The notes beneath the pieces are model-generated. The model had not been told where the DNA came from. It saw only the letters and a list, made by a program, of their open reading frames with translations, and did not search any database. DNA of 34,237 bases from Rhodoferax sp. (lineage in GTDB: Bacteria > Pseudomonadota > Gammaproteobacteria > Burkholderiales > Burkholderiaceae_C). This document shows positions 11,105-26,157 of this stretch, one piece after another. The translations under genes were made by a program, and so were the position numbers. The stretch is from positions 1-34,237 of the forward strand of contig JAURGS010000002.1 of NCBI GenBank assembly GCA_030833685.1. Direction: 5' to 3'. How positions within the stretch are numbered: position 1 is the first letter of the stretch; every line of letters starts with the position of its first letter.

Positions 11105-12262
11105 ATGAAATGCGCCCTGGTTGGATCCCGTTATTTCGGCGCGCTGGTTTTCGAAACGCTGCGCAAGGAAGAAGGCCTCGAGTTCAGCTGCGTGGTCGCA
11201 CCCGCTGCAGATGATCGACTGGCACTGGCCGCTCAGGCTGCGGGCGTCACAGTGCATGTGCTGGAAACCCCGCGGTTCGTCCCCGAGGAAGCGATTGCAC
11301 CCGGAACCGATTTAATCCTGGCTGCTCACACCCATGCCCGAATCACCAATGAGGCGTTGGCCCGGGCGCGACTGGGCGGCGTGGGCTACCACCCCTCGCT
11401 GCTGCCGCGTCACCGCGGCATCGCGGCGGTCGAATGGACGATTCTGGAGGGCGATCCGATCGCTGGTGGTTCGGTTTATCACCTGGCAGACGGCTGGGAC
11501 GCTGGTTCCATCGCTGCGCAGGACTGGTGTTTTGTCCAAAAAGGCGAAACTGCGCGAGACCTGTGGGAGCGTGCGCTAGCACCCATGGGCCTGGCGCTTC
11601 TGAGCAAGGTCGCGCACCATGCCCGGCTCAACAACGAATTGCCAGCCTTCGCGCAGGACCCGCGCTTTGCGACCAAAGCGCCCATGATTAAAAAGTCTAT
11701 CGTCTTGAGCGAAGGGAGCGATACAACAACTGTCTCCGTGGTGGCAACCGTCAGTGGCGCGGACCGCCAGGGCATTGTCAGCTCGATCGCTGAGAGAGCC
11801 AAACGTTACCAGGCGAACTGGACAGCCAGCAGGCTGGCGCGGGCGGCCGGTGAGTTTGCCGGCATGGTGCACTTTGAAGTTGCCCCGGAAAACGCTGACG
11901 CCTTTGTTCAGGCACTCAAAGGCCTGGAAGCAGGCGGCTTGCAACTGGTTGTCACCAAGAGCAGCGCGGCGCAGGTCTCCACCACACATCGTGTTCTGGA
12001 CCTTCATCTGGTGGGTGATGATCGGGTCGGTATTGTTAGCAGCCTGACTGGCATGTTGACCGCGCGCAGCATCAGTATCGAGACCATGCAAACTGAGGTC
12101 ATACGTAGCAGCGCAGAGGGTAAGTCGACCTTCAAAATTACCGCGCAGCTCCTGGTACCCGCTTCGGTTCGGTCAGAGGCTTTAGAGCAAGAGCTCGGGT
12201 CACTGGCCAACGAGATGATGTTGGACATCGCCCTGGGTGATAAGGGTCTGAGCAAGGCCTAA
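11105..12262 (+). CDS. Formyltransferase/hydrolase domain fused to two GcvR-like ACT domains
   Basis: 385-residue cytoplasmic protein. Residues 1-200 form a formyltransferase domain; GYHPSLLPRHRG (His96) and DGWDAG (Asp132) match the catalytic His and Asp. The Y-H-P-S-L-L-P-R-H-R-G form is that of the 10-formyltetrahydrofolate hydrolase domain of 10-formyl-THF dehydrogenase rather than Met-tRNA formyltransferase. Residues about 207-286 and 296-380 are two ACT domains with the GcvR/PurU pattern G-A-D-R-Q-G-I-V and G-D-D-R-V-G-I-V. PurU has the opposite order (ACT first). The reaction is unproven; 10-formyl-THF hydrolysis to formate, or formyl transfer to another acceptor, would fit. It is followed after 2 bp by the Crp/Fnr gene and faces the oxalate/formate genes. 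ATG at 11105 chosen for the GGAG site; a TTG at 11084 is an alternative. Confidence 0.8.
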   Translation: MKCALVGSRYFGALVFETLRKEEGLEFSCVVAPAADDRLALAAQAAGVTVHVLETPRFVPEEAIAPGTDLILAAHTHARITNEALARARLGGVGYHPSLLPRHRGIAAVEWTILEGDPIAGGSVYHLADGWDAGSIAAQDWCFVQKGETARDLWERALAPMGLALLSKVAHHARLNNELPAFAQDPRFATKAPMIKKSIVLSEGSDTTTVSVVATVSGADRQGIVSSIAERAKRYQANWTASRLARAAGEFAGMVHFEVAPENADAFVQALKGLEAGGLQLVVTKSSAAQVSTTHRVLDLHLVGDDRVGIVSSLTGMLTARSISIETMQTEVIRSSAEGKSTFKITAQLLVPASVRSEALEQELGSLANEMMLDIALGDKGLSKA

Positions 12263-12264
12263 GC

Positions 12265-12882
12265 ATGCGCGCCATCACCCTGCACAGGCATCCGGACCGG
12301 ATGGTCATCCATGTTGAGCTTAAACAGAACAGTTTGCTCAAGAATGTGACTGACGAGCAGCTCGCAGAGCTGGAGGGCCACTTGCAGATCGTTGATGCAG
12401 CCAAGGGCGACTACCTGGTCACGCAGGGCGACCGTGACATGGAGCAATACTTTGTCTTGCAGGGCATGCTCAAGCGCGTCGTCACCGCGCCAGGCAGTAA
12501 AAAAGAAATGGCACTGCGTTTTTCTTCTGAGCGTGGCATGGAGACTTCTTACGCAGCCTGGCGCTTGCGCACACCTGCTCCCTACAGCATTGTTGCGTCC
12601 ACCAAATGCCGTGTTGCCAAGCTCAATATGCCCAAATGGGTCGAGTTTCTGGAGTTGCATCCAGAATTCAAAGCCGTCTTTGAGTTTGAAGTCATGGCGT
12701 TAATGGGTGAAATCATGGCGCATACCATCACACTACACCTGCTGGACGCGCCAGGGCGCGTACACCGCTTTGAGCGCAAGCACCCCGACTTGTTTGAGCG
12801 CATCCCCAAAAAAGAACTCGCGGCCTACCTCAACCTGTCCGCCGAGACGCTCAGTCGTCTCAAGCAGCGCGGAAAGATCTGA
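12265..12882 (+). CDS. Crp/Fnr-family transcriptional regulator, candidate regulator of the oxalate genes
   Basis: 205-residue regulator: cyclic-nucleotide-binding-like beta barrel (about residues 15-125, GDYLVTQGD and YFVLQGMLKRV), long dimer helix and a C-terminal winged helix. The recognition helix reads SAETLSRLKQR; Glu194, Ser197 and Arg198 occupy the FNR E-x-x-S-R positions that read TTGA-type half sites. FNR's N-terminal cysteine cluster is absent (I see one Cys only, in TKCRVAK), so it should not carry an FNR-type iron-sulfur cluster; its signal is unknown. It begins 2 bp after the formyltransferase stop codon, in one operon, convergent with tctA. The inverted repeats at 16410-16423 and 26144-26157 fit its predicted specificity. 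An in-frame ATG at 12301 is an alternative start. Confidence 0.88.
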   Translation: MRAITLHRHPDRMVIHVELKQNSLLKNVTDEQLAELEGHLQIVDAAKGDYLVTQGDRDMEQYFVLQGMLKRVVTAPGSKKEMALRFSSERGMETSYAAWRLRTPAPYSIVASTKCRVAKLNMPKWVEFLELHPEFKAVFEFEVMALMGEIMAHTITLHLLDAPGRVHRFERKHPDLFERIPKKELAAYLNLSAETLSRLKQRGKI

Positions 12883-13102: not shown

Positions 13103-14620
13103 CTACTGCTCGGCCGCCCTCAATTTATTCTTAACAATCCCATACAAGGGCATGAGCAAGAGCACCAAGGCTAGGGTGGTGATACCGCCTACCAAGAAGT
13201 TGGAGAAAAAGATTGAAAGATCACCCTGAGACGCCAGCATGGCTTGCCTGAACGAACTCTCGGTACGGTCACCAAGCACCACCGCCAGAACAAGTGGGGC
13301 CAGCGGGTACGACAGTTTCTTGAACAAGTAACCCACCACACCAAACAAGACCATCAGGTAGATGTCGAACTCAGAGTTATGCACGGTGTAGGCGCCAATC
13401 GCACAAATAACGATGATTACGGGTGCAATCACCGAGAAAGGAATACGCAAAATGGCGGCAAACAGCGGTACACAGGTCAGCACCACGATCAGACCCGCGA
13501 TATTGCCCAGATACATCGAGGCGATCAGCCCCCAGACAAAGTCCTTCTGCTCCACGAACAGCAGCGGTCCAGGCTCCAGGCCCCAAATCAGCAGACCGCC
13601 AAGCAAAACAGCAGCGGTTGGAGAACCTGGCACACCCAAAGTCAGCATCGGCAGCAAAGCCGAGGTACCTGCCGCATGGGCCGCGGTCTCAGGGGCCACC
13701 ACCCCTTCCACCTGGCCAGTTCCGAACTTTTCACCGTCTCGTGATGTGCGCCGGGCAACGCCATAGGCCATGAACGACGCAGGTGTGGCGCCACCAGGAA
13801 CAATACCCATGAAGCAACCAATGACAGACGAGCGGATCGACGTCATCCAGTACTTGGGCAACTCAGCCCAAGTACTAAGCACCACCCTGAGGTTGATCTT
13901 GGCCTTGGTGCCCTTGAATTCCAGCCCTTCCTCCAGGGTCTGCAAAATTTCGCCAATGCCGAACAAGCCAATAACGACCACCAAAAAGTCAAAGCCACTG
14001 AGGAGCGACTCAGTGCCAAAAGTCATGCGCAATGTGCCAGTGACGGTATCGGTTCCAACCGCAGACAGGGCAAAGCCAATCATCATGGCTACCACCGTCT
14101 TGAAGGGCGCTTCCTTGTTCATGCCGACAAAGGCACAGAAGGTCAGTAGATAGACCGAGAAAAACTCGGGCGGACCAAAGGCTAGCGCAAAATTAGCCAC
14201 GATCGGCGACAAAAAGGTCACCACCAAAATGGCGACAAAAGCGCCAATGAACGACGAGGTGAACGCAGCAGTCAGAGCCTCACCGGCACGGCCTTTCTGG
14301 CCCAGCGGATAGCCGTCAAAAGTGGTCGCCACCGACCAGGGTTCACCTGGGATATTGAACAGAATTGAGGTGATGGCACCGCCAAACAATGCGCCCCAGT
14401 AAATACACGACAGCAAAATAATCGCAGAAGTCTGGCCACCCGGTTGCTGCGCCATGGTGAAGGTCAGCGGTAACAAAATGGCCACGCCATTCGCGCCGCC
14501 GAGGCCCGGCAACACGCCAATGATCACGCCCAGAATCACGCCACCAAACATCAATAGGACGTTTTTAAGACTCAGTGCGATGGCAAAGCCATCCATCAAG
14601 GAGAAAAAGGAATCAGCCAT
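13103..14620 (-). CDS. tctA: Tripartite tricarboxylate transporter, large membrane subunit TctA
   Basis: 505-residue polytopic inner-membrane protein with about twelve hydrophobic segments. The family signature GVLPGLGGANGVAILLP lies near residues 37-53 and the second half has a related TLGVPGSPTAAVLLGG, as usual in TctA. It forms the channel for solute handed over by TctC. It is the last gene of the tctC-tctB-tctA cluster; the 34 bp between tctB and tctA imply co-transcription. Given the enclosing oxalate and formate genes, the substrate is inferred to be oxalate or another small dicarboxylate; the family itself is known for citrate, tartrate, terephthalate and similar anions. The end faces the Crp/Fnr gene, with 220 bp between them that show no clear terminator. 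Confidence 0.93.
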   Translation of the reverse strand: MADSFFSLMDGFAIALSLKNVLLMFGGVILGVIIGVLPGLGGANGVAILLPLTFTMAQQPGGQTSAIILLSCIYWGALFGGAITSILFNIPGEPWSVATTFDGYPLGQKGRAGEALTAAFTSSFIGAFVAILVVTFLSPIVANFALAFGPPEFFSVYLLTFCAFVGMNKEAPFKTVVAMMIGFALSAVGTDTVTGTLRMTFGTESLLSGFDFLVVVIGLFGIGEILQTLEEGLEFKGTKAKINLRVVLSTWAELPKYWMTSIRSSVIGCFMGIVPGGATPASFMAYGVARRTSRDGEKFGTGQVEGVVAPETAAHAAGTSALLPMLTLGVPGSPTAAVLLGGLLIWGLEPGPLLFVEQKDFVWGLIASMYLGNIAGLIVVLTCVPLFAAILRIPFSVIAPVIIVICAIGAYTVHNSEFDIYLMVLFGVVGYLFKKLSYPLAPLVLAVVLGDRTESSFRQAMLASQGDLSIFFSNFLVGGITTLALVLLLMPLYGIVKNKLRAAEQ

Positions 14621-15233: not shown

Positions 15234-16247
15234 TTATTTTTTCTCAGCCAAGAACCCGGCACCCTTCATCAGGTATTCATGGTCGCGCTCGGCCTTGGTG
15301 ACCCAGAAGAAATAATCCTGGCCCTCCAACTGAGACTGATTGAACGCACCCTTGGACATCAGTGCAGCCCAGTCGGGAGTGGCAATCACTTTGCGCATCA
15401 GGTTCACGTAGTAGTCAACCTGGTCTTTGCTCACACCGCCGGGCATGAAGATGCCACGCAGCATCAGGTAGGTCACATCGAGACCTTGCTCCTTGCAGGT
15501 TGGGATGTCGCCCCACGACATGGTGTCAGTCATCTTCTCTTTGTACGGCATGCGCTGGTCATCAAACACACACAAGGGGCGCAATTTGCCGCCACGCCAG
15601 TGCGCCACCGCTTCGCTGGGGTTATTCACCGACGAATCGATGTGCTTGCCCACCAATTGCACAGCCACCGCACCGCCACCTTTTTGTGGGATGTAGATAA
15701 ACTTCGCACCCGTCTGCTTTTCAATGGCAGCGGTGATGATCTGGTCTTCCTGCTTGGAGCCGGTACCGCCCATCTTCATCTTGTTGGGACCTGCCTTTTT
15801 CACAGCGTCCACGTACTCTTTAGCGGTCTTGTAAGGCGTGTCAGCATTGACCCACAACACAAACTCGTCGAGGGCGAGCATCTTGACTGGCGTCAGGTCT
15901 TTCCAGTTGAAAGGCACGCCTGTAGCCATGGGGGTAGTAAACAAATTCGACAGCGTGATGATGATCTTGTGAGGCTCACCCTTGGCACCCTTGACATCCA
16001 GAAAGCCTTCGGCGCCAGAGCCGCCCGACTTGTTGATCACCACCATCGGCTGTTTCATCAGGTTGTGTTTGACCACAATACCTTGGATCGCACGCGCCAT
16101 CTGGTCAGCGCCACCACCAGTACCGGCCGGGACGATGAACTCAACGGTCTTGGTCGGCTCCCAGGCCGCATGAACTGTCGAGGACAGCGCTGCCAGACCC
16201 ATAGCAGCCGCAAGGGCCGCCTTTTTGAATAACGTTTTTGCTTTCAT
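15234..16247 (-). CDS. tctC: Periplasmic solute-binding protein TctC (Bug family)
   Basis: 337-residue precursor with a clear signal peptide: MKAKTLFKKAALAAAMGLAAL followed by a VHAA cleavage site. The mature protein shows the Bug-family segments VEFIVPAGTGGGADQMAR near residue 40, VVINKSGGSGAEG, GGTGSKQED and YIPQKGGGAVAVQLVGKHID. It captures a carboxylate in the periplasm for TctA/TctB. The ATG at 16247 is preceded by AGGAG 8 bases upstream; the open frame extends further but without such a site. An inverted repeat of the Crp/Fnr type at 16410-16423 lies in its upstream region. Substrate specificity is inferred from context (oxalate), not from residues; Bug proteins also bind succinate, malate, glutamate and aromatic acids. 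Confidence 0.93.
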   Translation of the reverse strand: MKAKTLFKKAALAAAMGLAALSSTVHAAWEPTKTVEFIVPAGTGGGADQMARAIQGIVVKHNLMKQPMVVINKSGGSGAEGFLDVKGAKGEPHKIIITLSNLFTTPMATGVPFNWKDLTPVKMLALDEFVLWVNADTPYKTAKEYVDAVKKAGPNKMKMGGTGSKQEDQIITAAIEKQTGAKFIYIPQKGGGAVAVQLVGKHIDSSVNNPSEAVAHWRGGKLRPLCVFDDQRMPYKEKMTDTMSWGDIPTCKEQGLDVTYLMLRGIFMPGGVSKDQVDYYVNLMRKVIATPDWAALMSKGAFNQSQLEGQDYFFWVTKAERDHEYLMKGAGFLAEKK

Positions 16248-16409
16248 ACTGTAGTCTCCTTGGTTACGGTCAAGAGCCTGTGGGCGCGGCAGAGAATCCC
16301 CAACGCTTAAACGGCTCAACTCTTTTGAATCTGATGGCCAGGGCATCACCCGGACCACCACCAACATCATACCGGCACGTAAGTGTCTCTCCGAGAGTGA
16401 TAAATACAG
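16248..16409 (-). promoter_or_regulatory. Leader and promoter region of tctC
   Basis: Non-coding stretch between the Crp/Fnr-type box and tctC. If the box sits at -41.5, the -10 would be GACACT (16382-16387, 3/6 match); a better -10 hexamer, TATGAT at 16366-16371, would place the box at -57.5. The promoter is therefore less clear than that of oxc. The rest of the interval between tctC and fdhA (16447-16553) shows no gene. Confidence 0.4.
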
Positions 16410-16423: not shown

Positions 16424-16446
16424 TACCTAGGGGAAACCCCTAGGTA
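16424..16446. repeat. Perfect 10-bp hairpin next to the tctC operator
   Basis: TACCTAGGGG at 16424-16433 and CCCCTAGGTA at 16437-16446 are perfect inverted arms around AAA. The repeat abuts the Crp/Fnr-type box with no base between. It lies 108 bases beyond the fdhA stop codon on the minus strand. No T-run follows, so it may be an fdhA transcript end, or a second operator for an unknown protein. Confidence 0.6.
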
Positions 16447-16553: not shown

Positions 16554-19388
16554 TCAAGCCGTCACCTCTGGCAATTGAGCCAGAATCTGTCCGCCACCAA
16601 AACTCAGGCGCGGCGCCAGGGTGCCACCGGCAGTGACGCGCACCGCACAATACTTGAACTCTGGAATCTTGGCAAAAGGGTCGAGCGCCGCGTTAGTCAG
16701 CCGGTTGATGGCGGCCTCGTAGTAGCAAAACGGCGCAAATACCGCACCTGGTGGGGAGCTGTCGTCAGCGCGCGCGTACAAAACCACTTCTCCCCGACGA
16801 GATTGCAGCGTCACCACGTCCCCTGCGGCGATACCCAAGCGCTCCATATCCAGCGGATGGATGAGCGCCACCGGATCGGGCTCAATAGCATCCAACATGG
16901 TGGCGCGGCGCGTCATGCTGCCAGTGTGCCAGTGCTCGAGTTGGCGACCCGTGATCAACACCATCGGGAACTCTGCGTCCGGGCGCTCGTTGGCAGGAAT
17001 CACGTCAGCCGGAACAAAACGGGCTTTGCCACCCTCTCGCGGAAACGTATCCGTGAACACCACCGACTGACCTGGGTCACCTTCTTGCTGGCAAGGGTAA
17101 GTCACTGCGTGCTCGCGTTCCAGACGTTCCCAGGTGATGCCACCAATACTGGGCATGGTGTGGCGCATCTCATCGAAAACCTCCGACACATGCTTGTAAT
17201 GCCAGTCCAGGCCCAAGCGACGGGCAATCTGCTCGATGATCCACAGATCTTGGCGCGCATCGCCCGGGGGATCAATCGCCTGGCGCCCCATTTGAACCAG
17301 TCGGTCAGTGTTGGTGAAGCTACCCGTTTTCTCAGGGAACGCACTGGCTGGCAGGATCACGTCGGCCAGGTAGGCCGTCTCGGTCAGAAAGATGTCTTGC
17401 ACCACCAGATGGTCCAGCGCTGCCAAGGCTTCACGGGCGTGGTTGGCATCAGGGTCTGACATGGCGGGGTTTTCGCCCATCACGTACATCCCGCGAATGT
17501 CGCCTTTTTGGATGGCATGCATGACCTCCACCACGGTCAAGCCTGGCTTGTCGTCCAGCGTGCCAGCATTCAAACCCCAGGCCGATTCAAAGCGTGCGCG
17601 CACCTCAGGCCTAGAGACATGTTGGTAGTCGGGCAGCATCATCGGAATCAAACCTGCGTCGGACGCGCCTTGCACATTGTTCTGCCCACGCAATGGGTGC
17701 AGACCCGTGCCCGGGCGGCCAATTTGTCCAGTCATCAGCGACAGGGCAATCAGGCAGCGTGCATTGTCGGTACCGTGCACATGCTGAGACACACCCATGC
17801 CCCACAAAATCATGGATGCCTTGGAGGAGGCGTAAAGGCGGGCGACATAACGGATGGTGTCGGCGTCAATGCCACAGATAGGCGCCATGCGCTCTGGGCT
17901 GTAATCGGCAACATTCGCCTTCAGTTCATCAAAGCCGATGGTCCGGCTGGCGATGAAGTCCTGGTCAACCAAGCCTTCCTCAACAATCACATGCATCATG
18001 GCGTTAAGCAGCGCCACATCGGTGTCGGGTTTGAACTGCAAATAGCGATGCGCCAAACGCGCCAAGTCAGAGCGACGCGGATCGCAAACAATTAGCTTGG
18101 TGCCGTTGATAACCGCATTCTTAATCCAGCTTGCGGCAACCGGGTGGTTGACCGTGGGGTTCGCACCAATCACGATCACCACCTCAGCCTGGGTGACATC
18201 CATGACCGGGTTGGAAACCGCACCCGATCCAATGCCTTCGAGCAATGCCACCACTGAGGAGGCATGACACAAACGCGTGCAGTGGTCGACGTTGTTAGTG
18301 CCAAAGCCGGTGCGCACCAGCTTCTGAAACAGGTAGGCTTCCTCGTTACTGCCTTTGGCTGAGCCAAAGCCTGCTAGTGCGGCCTTGCCATGTGTGTCAC
18401 GTATCGCCGCAAGCTTGCCGCCGGCGAACTCCAGGGCTTCCTCCCAGCTCGCTTCGCGAAAGATCGACATCACCTGATTGGGTTCCATCTGAAAGTCGCC
18501 GCGCTTGGGCGCATCCGCACGCCGAATCAGCGGCTTGGTTAAACGGTGCGGGTGGTGCGCGTAATCAAATCCATAACGTCCTTTGACGCACAGACGACCT
18601 TGATTGGCGGGGCCAGAGCGGCCATTAACAAACAAAATCTTGTTGTCCTTGACGTTGTAAGTTAGCTGACAGCCCACGCCACAGTACGGGCACACCGAGG
18701 ACACTTGCTTATCAGGCTTGGCCATGCCCACGCCGCGCGCTGGCATCAGTGCACCAGTGGGGCAGGCCTGAACGCATTCGCCACAGGCCACGCAGGTAGA
18801 AGCGCCCATGGGATCATCCATGTCAAACACAATCTGGGCATGCTCACCGCGAAAGGCCAGCCCGATCACATCATTGACTTGCTCGTCGCGGCAGGCTCGC
18901 AGGCATCGGGTGCACTGAATACAGGCATCCAGATTCACGGCAATCGCGGGGTGTGATAAGTCCTGGTGAACAGCAGCACGGGCCTTGAAACGCGGCTTAC
19001 CCACACCGAGCTGTTCAGACCAGAAGTCCAGATCATTGCGGCGGGTGTACGCTGTCTCTGGCATATCGGCCTGCAAGAGCTCAAGCACCAATTTTTGTGA
19101 CTTGATTGCTCGCTCGCTCTGGCTATTGACCTTCATGCCTTCAGTCGGTGCGCGGCAGCACGATGGGGCCAGCACCCGCTCGCCGGCAACTTCCACCACA
19201 CATGCACGGCAGTTGCCCGCCTTGTCCAAGCCGTCTTTGTAGCAAAGATGCGGGATCTTCACGCCGTTGACCTTGGCCACATCCAGAATGGTCTGATTAC
19301 CGGTGGCCTGCACCGCGCGCCCATTGAGTTCAAAGTTGACCGTGGGCGTCTGCAGCTGGGCTTGCTCTTTGCGAGTGATTGCGTTCAT
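16554..19388 (-). CDS. NAD-dependent formate dehydrogenase, catalytic alpha subunit (Mo/W)
   Basis: 944-residue cytosolic subunit that oxidises formate to CO2. In order: a NuoG-like [2Fe-2S] domain (Cys49, Cys60, Cys63, Cys77), two [4Fe-4S] clusters of ferredoxin type (CIQCTRCLRAC 156-166, CVACGECVQAC 199-209), the cofactor-proximal [4Fe-4S] (Cys233, Cys236, Cys240, Cys267) and the bis-pterin molybdenum/tungsten domain with active-site Cys374-His375 in RLCHAS (Cys, not selenocysteine). The C-terminal molydopterin dinucleotide-binding domain is present (MVLITGRQLEHWHTG). GAGG precedes the ATG. It begins 10 bp after its partner subunit. With the fused beta subunit it matches the two-subunit FDH1 of Methylobacterium, which uses tungsten; the metal here is not decidable from sequence. 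No fdhD or pterin genes are in the window. Confidence 0.95.
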   Translation of the reverse strand: MNAITRKEQAQLQTPTVNFELNGRAVQATGNQTILDVAKVNGVKIPHLCYKDGLDKAGNCRACVVEVAGERVLAPSCCRAPTEGMKVNSQSERAIKSQKLVLELLQADMPETAYTRRNDLDFWSEQLGVGKPRFKARAAVHQDLSHPAIAVNLDACIQCTRCLRACRDEQVNDVIGLAFRGEHAQIVFDMDDPMGASTCVACGECVQACPTGALMPARGVGMAKPDKQVSSVCPYCGVGCQLTYNVKDNKILFVNGRSGPANQGRLCVKGRYGFDYAHHPHRLTKPLIRRADAPKRGDFQMEPNQVMSIFREASWEEALEFAGGKLAAIRDTHGKAALAGFGSAKGSNEEAYLFQKLVRTGFGTNNVDHCTRLCHASSVVALLEGIGSGAVSNPVMDVTQAEVVIVIGANPTVNHPVAASWIKNAVINGTKLIVCDPRRSDLARLAHRYLQFKPDTDVALLNAMMHVIVEEGLVDQDFIASRTIGFDELKANVADYSPERMAPICGIDADTIRYVARLYASSKASMILWGMGVSQHVHGTDNARCLIALSLMTGQIGRPGTGLHPLRGQNNVQGASDAGLIPMMLPDYQHVSRPEVRARFESAWGLNAGTLDDKPGLTVVEVMHAIQKGDIRGMYVMGENPAMSDPDANHAREALAALDHLVVQDIFLTETAYLADVILPASAFPEKTGSFTNTDRLVQMGRQAIDPPGDARQDLWIIEQIARRLGLDWHYKHVSEVFDEMRHTMPSIGGITWERLEREHAVTYPCQQEGDPGQSVVFTDTFPREGGKARFVPADVIPANERPDAEFPMVLITGRQLEHWHTGSMTRRATMLDAIEPDPVALIHPLDMERLGIAAGDVVTLQSRRGEVVLYARADDSSPPGAVFAPFCYYEAAINRLTNAALDPFAKIPEFKYCAVRVTAGGTLAPRLSFGGGQILAQLPEVTA

Positions 19389-19398
19389 GGGTAAGGCC

Positions 19399-21099
19399 TC
19401 AGGTCAGCTCGTTAGGAAAATACTTGATCACACAGTCGATGGGGTTGGGCGCCGCCTGGCCCAGGCCGCATATCGACGCATCGCGCATCACTGCCGATAG
19501 ATCTGCCAACAAATCCTGGTCCCAAGTAGCCTGCTCGATCAAATCAGACGCCTTGGCTGTTCCGTTACGGCAAGGCGTGCACTGCCCACACGATTCGTGC
19601 TTGAAGAATCGCAGTGTGTTGCGTGCTGCCGCCACTGCAGTGTCTTTGTCAGACAGCACCACCACCGCCGCTGAGCCGATGAAGCACCCGTAGGGCTGCA
19701 GCGTGTCAAAGTCCAGGGGAATGTCGTTCATGCTCGCCGGCAAAATGCCGCCTGACGCGCCGCCTGGCAGGTAGCCATAAAAACGGTGGCCGTCCTGCAT
19801 GCCACCACAGTAATCGTCGATCAAGGCCTGAATGGTGATGCCTGCAGGAGCCAGCTTGACCCCTGGTGAACGCACGCGACCCGACACAGAAAACGAGCGC
19901 AGACCTTTGCGGCCATTGGCCCCGTGGCTGGCAAACCAAGCCCCACCTTTTTCAAGCAACTCACGCACCCAGAAAAGGGTTTCAAAGTTGTGCTCCAGCG
20001 TTGGGCGCCCGAACAAGCCAACTTGTGCCACGTAAGGCGGGCGCAGGCGCGGCATGCCGCGCTTTCCCTCAATGGATTCGATCATGGCCGACTCTTCGCC
20101 ACAAATATAGGCCCCGGCGCCACGGCGCAAACTGATCGACGGCAGCTGTGCAGCTAAGACCGGGTCTGCCTGCAGTTTGGCAAGTTCTGTTTCCAGCATT
20201 GCACGACAACCGTGGTACTCGTCGCGCAGGTAGATGTAGACCTGATCGATGCCAACGGCCCAGGCGGCAATCAGCATGCCTTCCAGAAAGCGGTGCGGGT
20301 CGGTCTCCAGCATTGCACGGTCCTTGAAGGTGCCAGGTTCGCCCTCGTCGATGTTTACCGCCATCAGGCGGGGTGCCGCTTCGGCGCGAACAATGCGCCA
20401 TTTGCGCCCAGCCGGAAAGCCAGCGCCACCTAAGCCCCGCAGACCTGAGTCTTCCAGCGTGCGAATAACACTGTCGACATCGCGCTTGCCCTGCCAGCAG
20501 GCCTGCATCAGGGCATAACCCCCCGCCGCGCGGTACGCATCCAGGTCCAGAAAACCGGTAGGAATATGCTGCGTTTGCCCACTCGCAACCGTCTTGGCTA
20601 TCGCATCAGCCGTGGCCTGAGGCACTGGGTTTTGACCCACCACCGCCGCCGGCGCTTGCTCGCAGCGGCCAATGCAAGGCGCGGCAATCACGCGCACCTC
20701 GCGCCCCAGCAGGGTGGGCAACTTGGCCAACAGGTCCTGCGCACCCGCCATCTCGCAGGACAAGCCGTCACACACCCTCACCGTGAGCATGGGTGGCGCC
20801 TCCTGACCCTCTTTAACCACGTCAAAGTGGTGGTAGAAGGTCGCAACCTCGTACACCTCGGTTTGCGCCAGTTGCATCTCCTGGGCCAACGCGGCCAGGT
20901 GCGCCGCAGACAAATGCCCATAGCGATCTTGAATTTTGTGCAGATGCTCGATGAGCAGATCGCGACGCAGAGGCTGTTCACCCAGCAAAGCCTTCACTTG
21001 CAACAGTGCTTCAGGATCGACACGGCGGCCCTTGGGCGCCTGGCGCTTGCGCTCCTGGGTACTGGCCTGCACTGCAATCGGTATCACCGGATGGTTCAT
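19399..21099 (-). CDS. Formate dehydrogenase beta subunit, NuoE-NuoF fusion (diaphorase)
   Basis: 566-residue subunit passing electrons from the alpha subunit to NAD+. The NuoE-like part (about 25-160) has four [2Fe-2S] cysteines, Cys110, Cys115, Cys142 and Cys146. The NuoF-like part has the FMN/NAD loop GLGGAGFPAGRKW (222-234), VNIDEGEPGTFKDR, RRGAGAYICGEESA, and the C-terminal [4Fe-4S] ligands SCGQCTPC (Cys504, Cys507, Cys510) with Cys544. In the FdsGBA type these are two proteins; here they are one, as in Methylobacterium FDH1B (about 570 residues). Spacing of 24 bp to the upstream transferase gene and 10 bp to the alpha subunit indicates one operon. It makes oxalate breakdown yield NADH. 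Confidence 0.94.
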   Translation of the reverse strand: MNHPVIPIAVQASTQERKRQAPKGRRVDPEALLQVKALLGEQPLRRDLLIEHLHKIQDRYGHLSAAHLAALAQEMQLAQTEVYEVATFYHHFDVVKEGQEAPPMLTVRVCDGLSCEMAGAQDLLAKLPTLLGREVRVIAAPCIGRCEQAPAAVVGQNPVPQATADAIAKTVASGQTQHIPTGFLDLDAYRAAGGYALMQACWQGKRDVDSVIRTLEDSGLRGLGGAGFPAGRKWRIVRAEAAPRLMAVNIDEGEPGTFKDRAMLETDPHRFLEGMLIAAWAVGIDQVYIYLRDEYHGCRAMLETELAKLQADPVLAAQLPSISLRRGAGAYICGEESAMIESIEGKRGMPRLRPPYVAQVGLFGRPTLEHNFETLFWVRELLEKGGAWFASHGANGRKGLRSFSVSGRVRSPGVKLAPAGITIQALIDDYCGGMQDGHRFYGYLPGGASGGILPASMNDIPLDFDTLQPYGCFIGSAAVVVLSDKDTAVAAARNTLRFFKHESCGQCTPCRNGTAKASDLIEQATWDQDLLADLSAVMRDASICGLGQAAPNPIDCVIKYFPNELT

Positions 21100-21123: not shown

Positions 21124-22371
21124 TCAAATGACCTGCTCAGCCCGCAGCGCCTGGATATCGGCTGCGCTATAGCCCAGCTGACTCAACACCTCATCGGTAT
21201 GCTCACCCAGCAAGGGCGAACGCGTCACCACGGTGGGGCTGTCTGACATCTTGATCGGGTTACCCACAGTGAGGTATTTGCCGCGCACGGGGTGGTCTAC
21301 TTCGACAACCGTACCGCTTGCGCGCAGCGCCTCGTCTTCGGCAATCTCTTTCATCGACAAAATTGGGCCGCATGGAATGTCGTAGGCGTTGAGAATGTCC
21401 ATGGCCTCGAACTTGGTCTTGGTCTTGGTCCACTCTTCAATGCGGGCAAAAATCATCTTCAAATGCGGCAACCGCGCTTTCGGTGTCGAGAAGTGCGGAT
21501 CGGTGATCCAACCCTCCTCGTCAATCACCTTGCAAATCGCTGGCCACACTGCCGCCTGGGTGATGAAATAGATGTAGGCATTCGGGTCTTTTTGCCAGCC
21601 CTTGCATTTCAGGATGGAGCCGGGCTGGCCGCCACCTGACGCATTGCCTGCCCGCGGCACGGCCTCACCAAATTCAATGTCCGGGTACTGCGGGTATTCC
21701 TGCAACTCGCCGGTGCGCTCCAGACGCTGCTGGTCACGCAACTTGACCCGGCACAAATTCAAGACCGCATCTTGCATGGGTGCCAGCACCTTCTGCCCTT
21801 TTCCGCTTGTTTGCCGTTGCAGCAGCGCAGCCATGATGCCCAGGGCCAGATGCAAGCCTGTGCCGCTGTCGCCAATCTGTGCTCCAGTCACCAAAGGGGG
21901 GCCATCGTCAAATCCCGTGGTGGATGCGGCACCGCCTGCGCATTGCGCCACGTTCTCATAGACTTTGCAGGCCTCGTACTTGCCCGGGCCAAAGCCTTTG
22001 ACCGAAGCCACCACCATGCGCGGATTGAGTTCGTGTATGCGCTCCCAGGTAAAGCCCATACGGTCTAAGGCACCTGGCGCAAAATTCTCGACCAACACAT
22101 CACACTGCTTGATTAAAGCCTCCAGAACCTGCTTGCCCTTCGGATGTTTGGTGTTGACCGTGATCGAGCGCTTGTTGTGGTTGAGCATGGTGAAGTACAA
22201 GCTGTCGGCCTCGGGTATGTCCCGCAGCTGTCCACGGGTGGCATCGCCCTCGCCGGCTCGCTCCACCTTGATCACGTCGGCGCCGAACCAGGCCAGCAGT
22301 TGGGTACAGGTAGGCCCAGACTGCACGTGGGTGAAGTCCAAAATTCGGTAGCCATTCAAAGCCTTGCTCAT
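21124..22371 (-). CDS. frc: Formyl-CoA:oxalate CoA-transferase, intact copy
   Basis: 415-residue class III CoA-transferase that moves CoA from formyl-CoA to oxalate, releasing formate and oxalyl-CoA. The N-terminal DFTHVQSGP with the conserved Gln, the catalytic Asp168 in [20 protein letters not shown] and [11 protein letters not shown] are family features. The glycine loop is ASGGGQPGS instead of the GGGGQPGW seen in the neighbouring copy, and Gln48 replaces the Trp48 of the Oxalobacter enzyme. AAAGGA precedes the ATG. It lies between the PAS gene (30 bp upstream) and the formate dehydrogenase genes (24 bp downstream). Because the other copy is interrupted, this one may be the working transferase. 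Specificity for another dicarboxylate cannot be excluded. Confidence 0.92.
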
Positions 22372-22401: not shown

Positions 22402-22851
22402 TTATTGCTGCCCTGAGCCCGGCGCCTGGTGCTGCGCCTCGAGCTGGGCCAATCGGGCTCGCATGGTCTTTTCTTCTTCAAAACGTTTGGTTTCATCGCG
22501 GATGACAGCAACAACCTTGTCCACTTCACCCGTTTCACTACGCAGCAAACTCACCGTCATTGCGATTGACAGCGCCTGACCGCTACTGTGTAGCGCCGGC
22601 ACTCGAAGCAAGGTGTCGCCATAACGGGAGTGCCCGCTTTGCATGGCTTGACGGTACCCAGCCCAGTGACGCTCTCGGTAACGCTCAGGCGTAATCAGGT
22701 CTAGCGACTGCCCTATGGCATGCTGCGCGTCATAACCAAACAGCTTTTCAGCTGCCGGGTTCCACCAGCAGATCAGCCCTTGTACGTCAGCAGCAACCAC
22801 GGCGTCGGCCAGGGCCGACAGCAAGTTCGCTGAACTGATGGAATTGGGCAT
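22402..22851 (-). CDS. Stand-alone PAS protein, candidate haem-PAS sensor
   Basis: 149-residue soluble protein consisting of one PAS domain (about 8-122) and a charged C-terminal helix (KRFEEEKTMRARLAQLEAQ) that may form a coiled coil. No kinase, cyclase or DNA-binding domain follows. The F-helix region YRERHWAGY places His62 where FixL (YRSRHDGY) and E. coli DosP carry the proximal haem histidine, and Arg83 in LLRVPAL lies near the place of the FixL distal arginine (one residue offset by eye). Many non-haem PAS domains share part of this motif, so haem binding is a hypothesis. It lies between two transferase genes of the oxalate operon. Start at ATG 22851; the preceding TTG at 22857 is possible. 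No ribosome-binding site is evident. Confidence 0.85.
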   Translation of the reverse strand: MPNSISSANLLSALADAVVAADVQGLICWWNPAAEKLFGYDAQHAIGQSLDLITPERYRERHWAGYRQAMQSGHSRYGDTLLRVPALHSSGQALSIAMTVSLLRSETGEVDKVVAVIRDETKRFEEEKTMRARLAQLEAQHQAPGSGQQ

Positions 22852-22908
22852 CTGCAATTACAAGCTTGGTTATCGCTTCAGCTACCGCGCAACAGCGGGC
22901 CCGTTAAC

Positions 22909-23074: not shown

Positions 23075-24235
23075 CTAGAGATCAGAGAACTTGATCGGGC
23101 TGCCAACCGTGTAGTAGCTGCCACGCACTGGGTGCGGGACTTCAACGATGGAGCCGCTCTTGCGAAGTGACTCGTCACGCAGCAACTCGGCCATGCTCAG
23201 CACCGGTGCGCAGGGGATGTCAAATTTGCGGAAGATGTCAACGGCCTCGTACTTGGTCTTGTCTTTGATGAAGTCTTCGATGGTGCCAAAAATCTCCATG
23301 ATGTGTGGCTGACGACCACGCGGCGTGTTGTAGGCCGGATCATCTTTCCACTCGGGCTTGCCCAGCGCATCACAAATTGGGCCCCAGGCGTGACCCTGGA
23401 TAGTGAAGTAGATATACGCATTGGGGTCGGTTTCGTGACCCTTGCACTTCAGAATCCAGCCCGGCTGACCACCGCCGCCAGCGTTGCCGCCGCGTGGTGT
23501 GACTTTGCTGGCGAAGGCTTCCATCTCGTGGGGGTACTGTGGGTACTCTTCCAGGTAGCCCACACGCTCCAGACGCTGCTGGTCACGCATCTTCACGCGG
23601 CAAAGGTTCAACACGGCGTCCTGCATGGAGACCGCCACTTTCTGCCCTTTGCCGGTCTTCTGGCGGCCAATCACGGCCGTCAAGATACCGATGGCCAGGT
23701 GCATGCCCGTGTTGGAGTCGCCTAAAGCGGCAGCCGAAATGGTGGGCTCAGAGTTCTCGCCTTTCCACCAGCCTGTCGTAGAAGCGGCACCACCAGCGCA
23801 TTGCGCCACGTTCTCGTAGACCTTGAGGTCTTCGTAATGGTGGCCTTCGCTAAAGCCCTTGACCGAGGCCAGAATCATGCCGGGGTTGAGCTTTTGGATG
23901 TACTCCCAGGTAAAGCCCATGCGGTCCAGCGCGCCAGGGCCGAAGTTCTCGACCATGACATCGGATTCGCGGATCAGTTTTTCCAGAACTTCCTTGCCAG
24001 CGGCTGTCTTGGTGTCCAGCGTCAGCGAGCGCTTGTTGCTGTTGAGCATGGTGAAGTACAGGGCATCGGCATCCGGAATGTCGCGCAACTGGCTGCGTGT
24101 GACGTCGCCGGAGCCGGGGCGCTCAACCTTGATCACGTCAGCGCCGAACCAAGCCAGCAACTGGGTACAGGCTGGGCCTGCCTGAACGTGGGTGAAGTCA
24201 ATGATTTTGATGCCACTCAGTGGTTTGTTGTCCAT
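23075..24235 (-). CDS. frc: Formyl-CoA:oxalate CoA-transferase, second copy, cut short by an in-frame TAG
   Basis: 386-residue reading frame of a class III CoA-transferase, directly downstream of oxc (34 bp) with a strong ribosome-binding site AAAGGAG. The catalytic Asp173 (LGDSNTG) and the glycine loop GGGGQPGW agree with the Oxalobacter enzyme better than those of the intact neighbour do. The frame ends at TAG (23077-23075) just after IKFSDL, although the family's C-terminal segment continues in frame for 36 codons. From memory, Oxalobacter Frc has Gln at that place (FSGFQPEIT), so one C-to-T change in CAG would explain it. The C-terminal segment is conserved, so the truncated product may be inactive; a sequencing error or suppression are the alternatives. 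Confidence 0.88.
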
Positions 24236-25997: not shown

Positions 25998-26115
25998 AGG
26001 TTTCAAACCATGAGTTATGGGGTAGTGGCCCAAGGCCCTGAGCCTGTTTCGAGCCGCTGGTTGTCGCGCCAAGACGGGTGTTCGGTGTGTGAGCCACACT
26101 GACGCGACAGGCCAC

Positions 26116-26157
26116 ATTATCCAAAGGGTGCGGCAAGCAGGCGTTGACCGCAGTCAA
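26116..26157 (-). promoter_or_regulatory. Activator-dependent oxc promoter with Crp/Fnr-type operator
   Basis: On the minus strand the inverted repeat (plus-strand TTGACCGCAGTCAA at 26144-26157) is followed 22 bases later by GATAAT (26121-26116). Taking that as the -10, the repeat is centred exactly at -41.5, the class II position for FNR/CRP activators, and transcription would start near 26109. The hexamer at the -35 place (ACGCCT) is poor, as expected if an activator is needed. Confidence 0.7.

Follow-up and report, generated by a model that had tools for sequence, protein, structure and literature searches.

The window analyzed here, the whole stretch of 34,237 nt from Rhodoferax sp. (GCA_030833685.1, contig JAURGS010000002.1, positions 1 to 34,237, forward strand), belongs to an assembly of 2.67 Mb in 479 contigs that is 74% complete. 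Scans with NCBIfam and Pfam profiles show that its genes are those of an oxalate pathway: oxc, two frc genes, a small PAS protein, an NAD-type formate dehydrogenase and a tripartite tricarboxylate transporter (Table 1). The oxc gene, whose start is taken as ATG 25997, is the first of the unit oxc-frc-PAS-frc-fdsB-fdsA. The PAS protein is free-standing, with 151 residues, and its position is kept in many relatives at about 44-54% identity. The window is rearranged, in that only 2 bp separate the gene for a Crp/Fnr-fold regulator from a formyltransferase-ACT gene upstream of it, and the group regulator-tctA-tctC is found past the fds genes, on the side away from oxc. This preceding gene (11105-12262) encodes a formyltransferase-like N-terminal domain (with an Fmt match below the cut-off) fused to ACT domains, an unusual formyl-transfer protein that is possibly co-transcribed with the regulator.

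Table 1. Genes, predicted promoter elements and predicted operators of the oxalate locus (window coordinates)
Feature	Position	Strand	Basis
oxc, oxalyl-CoA decarboxylase, 575 aa	24270..25997	-	TIGR03254, 973.9 bits against a cut-off of 739.4 (scan of the 615-aa ORF)
frc2, formyl-CoA transferase	23075..24235	-	TIGR03253, 651 bits
Small PAS-domain protein within the oxc operon	22402..22857	-	Pfam PF00989; syntenic in many relatives
frc1, formyl-CoA transferase	21124..22371	-	TIGR03253, 715 bits
NAD-dependent formate dehydrogenase, beta-type subunit (NuoE/NuoF fusion)	19399..21099	-	Pfam PF01512, PF01257
Formate dehydrogenase alpha subunit	16554..19388	-	TIGR01591, 793 bits
tctC, tripartite tricarboxylate transporter binding protein (start ATG 16247)	15234..16247	-	Pfam PF03401, 101.9 bits
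tctA, transporter membrane subunit	13103..14620	-	Pfam PF01970, 489 bits
Crp/Fnr-fold regulator, 205 aa, wingless HTH with end ETLSRLKQRGKI	12265..12882	+	PF00027; 83-protein alignment; AlphaFold pLDDT 89 and CRP/FNR fold matches
-10 element GATAAT, oxc promoter	26116..26121	-	At +30 to +35 from box centre, like the TATGAT/TATCAT conserved in relatives
Weak -10 GACACT, tctC promoter, predicted +1 16375	16382..16387	-	Register of conserved xAxxAT (GACCAT etc.), +30 to +35 in 83% of tctC boxes
Predicted operator, box 1, TTGACCGCAGTCAA	26144..26157	.	Exact; conserved in 76/76 related oxc/regulator loci
Predicted operator, box 2, identical TTGACCGCAGTCAA	16410..16423	.	Exact; boxes precede tctC in most relatives

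The two boxes and the promoters they precede

An earlier note on this DNA had described an identical 14-bp box before oxc and before tctC, and both copies are present with no mismatches. The genome scan that it called for gave three matches to TTGAC-N4-GTCAA in the 2.67-Mb assembly, two of which are these boxes, and a reversed-pattern control likewise gave three, so that a genome-wide excess of the pattern is absent. Because the total is no higher than in the control, it is the placement of the sites, at two promoters of one pathway and with identical spacers, that is unusual rather than their number. At the genome rate, at least two matches in 34 kb have a probability of about 7e-4, a value computed without yet requiring that both boxes lie between genes and stand in promoter register. 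The half site in the window is imperfect (TTGACT). Matches with one mismatch number 87 in the host genome versus 43 in the control, about a twofold excess, and weaker sites for the regulator or for another Crp/Fnr protein may lie elsewhere in it. The third exact match, TTGACATGAGTCAA on contig C387 (L182:2311-2324), stands before an unrelated gene, between a glutamate-synthase-like oxidoreductase in the opposite orientation and a short protein that is hemerythrin-like by eye and has no NCBIfam match; it is possibly read by the FNR of this genome.

At oxc, the hexamer GATAAT (26121-26116) gives a predicted +1 at 26109 and hence places the centre of box 1 (26150.5) at -41.5, which reproduces the spacing previously claimed along with the poor -35; a consensus promoter scan at oxc found no sigma-70 pair. 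The predicted leader of oxc, from this +1 to its ATG, is about 112 nt. Class II sites center near -41.5 and are followed by a -10 element with A-11 and T-7 (PMC7349173), and from the predicted start sites the arrangement here is of this type, with an operator near -41.5, a good -10 and a poor -35. When the related loci are stacked on the box in the direction of oxc, the consensus is GAAAAATTGACC-NN-GGTCAATGG, then TTCCTATGATAACC, and a hexamer of the form xAxxxT begins, counted from the box center, at +30 in 71% of the oxc boxes and at +31 in 28%. These correspond to registers of -41.5 and -42.5, respectively, and the GATAAT of the window falls in the first; in a partly overlapping family sample the two registers account for 48% and 52%. 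Across the loci the -35 hexamer is degenerate and agrees with TTGACA at 1-4 of its 6 positions, usually at 2-3.

The center of box 2 is likewise at -41.5, here from GACACT (16387-16382, minus strand), which shares only 3/6 bases with the consensus TATAAT. The class II spacing, which had been claimed for oxc only, holds by this predicted register for tctC as well. Most relatives have a box 120-300 bp before the tctC match, either exact or altered at one or two positions. The exact tctC boxes have the consensus CAAACTTGACC-N3-GTCAAGAG-TTTTT, and in 83% xAxxAT is conserved at +30 to +35, a footprint that was found separately from that of oxc. Where frc1 forms a separate unit (in Oxalicibacterium/Herminiimonas-type loci and Collimonas), it too is preceded by a box and a TATGAT-type -10. 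A perfect 10-bp inverted repeat, TACCTAGGGG-AAA-CCCCTAGGTA (16424-16446), abuts the upstream side of box 2 in the window, 108 bp past the fdsA stop; there is no T-run after the repeat, which could be a hairpin at the end of the fds operon or a second operator.

Any site centered at -41.5 overlaps the -35 region, and Crp-fold proteins can repress, so the regulator might instead bind the box to keep polymerase from the oxc and tctC promoters. We regard this as very improbable, since the combination of a degenerate -35 with a conserved -10 is usual for activator-dependent promoters, and the spacing is held within 1 bp, as class II activation requires. Activation of oxc and tctC, rather than their repression, is most likely the function of the predicted operators.

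Features of the regulator

The residues E194, S197 and R198, to which the earlier note had drawn attention in the protein encoded at 12265-12882, are present and are invariant in 83/83 homologues. Indeed, the whole segment ETLSRLK (E194-T-L-S197-R198-L-K) is invariant in the alignment of 83 regulators, and it contains the FNR-type recognition pattern E-x-x-S-R; in FNR, ETxSR reads TTGAT-type half sites (PMC7349173). The protein has the hallmarks of the Crp/Fnr superfamily, namely a cNMP-binding-type beta-barrel (PF00027 above cut-off), a dimer helix and a C-terminal HTH. Its AlphaFold model has a pLDDT of 89 and a pTM of 0.73, and Foldseek matches it to GlxR, CRP, DNR and FNR with E values of about 1e-10 to 1e-9. 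It has no match to the Pfam HTH_Crp models, including that of the canonical winged HTH (HTH_Crp_2), and all 83 of the 83 homologues end in GKI a few residues past the recognition helix, with no wing. Judged by its sequence, the regulator is a short-HTH variant and not a canonical Crp/Fnr member, and with neither a wing nor an HTH_Crp match we infer its DNA binding from the fold and the recognition helix. Its best PDB sequence match (E 1e-10) is the wingless Crp-fold protein 3dn7 of Cytophaga hutchinsonii, which is a structural-genomics entry and whose aligned HTH also stops just past the recognition helix; for the window regulator, in contrast to 3dn7, targets are identified by comparative genomics.

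The regulator shares with CRP the Crp fold, a cNMP-like beta-barrel with an HTH, yet its system has TTGACC rather than TGTGA and ETLSR rather than RETVGR. The Arg-Ser pair that binds the cAMP phosphate is absent; the region reads WRLRTPAPYS, and Arg82-Ser83 of the phosphate cassette aligns by eye with Ala/Thr105-Pro106 (Ala105-Pro106 in the window), which makes cAMP binding unlikely. Nor are the four Fe-S cysteines of FNR found, as no cysteine is conserved among the 83 homologues, and the only one in the window protein is C115; the regulator is therefore not an FNR-type oxygen sensor. Class II activation by FNR/ANR (E. coli FNR; Ideonella FNR at cld, PMC7349173) resembles the present system in its 14-bp TTGA-N6-TCAA palindrome, ETxSR helix, -41.5 center, weak -35 and -10 that keeps A-11 and T-7. 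Unlike FNR/ANR, however, the window regulator has no conserved Fe-S cysteines and no wing, and its half site is TTGACC, not TTGAT, in local operons only. It thus appears FNR-like at the promoter, yet lacks what defines FNR and CRP. We propose that the inducer is oxalate or a pathway CoA thioester, and not O2 or cAMP, the suggestion of a pathway metabolite coming from the content of the regulon.

Conservation of the box and its likely reader

A search with the regulator gave 80 loci, nearly all from Burkholderiales genomes, plus 2 from the window's own genus, and 76 of these loci carry both oxc and the regulator, divergently transcribed. The related loci are not independent, as G016, G087 and G051 are probably one lineage. 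Aligning the relatives, as the earlier note had advised, places a box in 76/76 of the oxc/regulator loci, 65 with the exact TTGAC-N4-GTCAA and 11 with one or two mismatches; the inexact boxes occupy the same place as the exact ones, between oxc and regulator, and the consensus of the relatives is TTGACC-NN-GGTCAA. In one genome, G277, and in Collimonas (L204:6044-7476, L117:2-845) the divergent partner of the regulator is not oxc; it is a gene for another thiamine-diphosphate enzyme, and a box lies between the two. This enzyme is acetolactate-synthase or 2-hydroxyacyl-CoA-lyase-like (26-30% to Oxc) and might indicate that a C1-CoA lyase belongs to the regulon.

Because the box lies between oxc and regulator in most relatives, about 75 bp from the regulator start, it might mainly serve autoregulation, its place before oxc being a by-product of the shared intergenic region. 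The inner half of the box could overlap a regulator -35, and an AT at -18/-19 is weakly conserved; the -10 conservation, however, is on the oxc side only. Moreover, while the regulator is divergent from oxc in most relatives, in the window it is about 13 kb away and oxc has retained its box, as it has in three other genomes with the regulator elsewhere (G249, G325 and G389), and no box was found at the window's own regulator gene. The box therefore serves oxc and not just autoregulation, and its presence at tctC and at the split frc1 shows that it follows promoters, not one intergenic region. We regard a mainly autoregulatory role of the box as very improbable, although autorepression may occur additionally in the relatives.

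Co-occurrence was assessed in 68 genomes with oxc, 63 of them out of 400 family genomes sampled evenly and 5 added from the genus; each was searched for the regulator and for a box no more than 450 bp from oxc. Where the regulator is intact, 60 of 61 genomes have the box within this distance and 61/61 have it at the oxc operon. The 61st, G277, is no counter-example, as its oxc sits inside a tctC-tctA-oxc-frc operon that has the box at its head. Five of the six regulator-negative genomes have no box, their best matches (3-5 mismatches) being no better than shuffled sequence gives. In the sixth, G140, a box is present and only 130 bp separate oxc from a contig end; in its congeners the regulator is found a few kb downstream of oxc, past that contig end, so it too was dismissed as a counter-example. 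The remaining genome, G404, was excluded from the counts, as it has a regulator fragment and no box on a small contig that is possibly mis-assembled. With G140 omitted and the operon-head box of G277 uncredited, box and regulator are associated (60/1 versus 0/5) at a Fisher P of 6.7e-7, which ignores shared ancestry. Two genomes have a second copy of the regulator, 44-45% identical and 2-6 kb from the first (G154:C155:13819-14412 and G478:C7:35825-36424). Beyond the family, a regulator search of 370 genomes drawn from the class matched only the window's own genome at E 1e-40.

Among the observations that, by the earlier note, would speak against its reading were many matches at unrelated genes best explained by another FNR, and these are not seen. 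Beyond the three matches in the host genome, 17 related genomes have 0-3 exact copies of the extended box TTGACCNNGGTCAA each, and these include the oxalate locus wherever the oxc region was read; the three copies in G277 are at the head of the oxc operon, at the regulator and before a second tctC. A global regulon is rejected on these counts, the exact sites of the host genome being equal in number to those of the reversed-pattern control. An ordinary FNR/ANR site, read by the oxygen-sensing FNR of the genome such that oxygen tunes the oxalate genes, would explain why the box resembles TTGAT-N4-ATCAA and why the third host site precedes an unrelated gene, and the host does have an FNR-type paralogue with ETISR (L198). 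The consensus of the relatives, however, is not of the TTGAT type, and the few extended boxes per genome include, where the oxc region was read, the oxalate locus. The box also tracks the regulator rather than the FNR, with dissociation both ways among 12 genomes: G106 has the box and the regulator and no close FNR homologue, while G384 and G137 have oxc and FNR-like proteins and no box (G016, G087 and G051 have neither protein and are non-discriminating). FNR is thereby rejected as the main reader of the box, and we consider this reading very unlikely.

Proposed mechanism of activation of the oxalate genes

Based on the comparisons above, we put forward a mechanism in which both boxes are very probably the operators of one local regulon of oxalate uptake and breakdown, under class II activation by the regulator at 12265-12882. 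A dimer of the regulator would bind the palindrome TTGACC-NN-GGTCAA through its ETLSR recognition helix and, from -41.5, would recruit sigma-70 polymerase to promoters that have a -10 and almost no -35. This would switch on oxc-frc-fds, by which oxalate is converted via oxalyl-CoA and formyl-CoA to formate and CO2, and also tctCBA, the probable route of oxalate import. The comparative sequence evidence gives strong support to the view that the operator-regulator pair is best interpreted as a class II activator specific to the pathway of oxalate use. We see the chances as evenly balanced for a more far-reaching proposal, in which the regulator would be the first characterized member of a family-restricted clade of wingless Crp-fold proteins. 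Its barrel pocket would detect a metabolite of the oxalate pathway (oxalate, oxalyl-CoA or formyl-CoA), and the protein would act as a master switch dedicated to oxalate use in Burkholderiaceae.

A local activator of the Crp/Fnr type is of a kind already known, whereas the open literature searched appears to hold no description of this member, of its operator or of its regulon. The search, which covered open-access papers, turned up none that names an oxalate regulator of the Crp/Fnr type. How the soil, rhizosphere and freshwater oxalate-eaters of this group sense oxalate and induce oxc and frc is likewise undescribed in the open-access papers searched, and the present analysis names for them a candidate regulator, its operator, its promoters and a small regulon, which together offer a candidate oxalate-responsive switch for biosensors.
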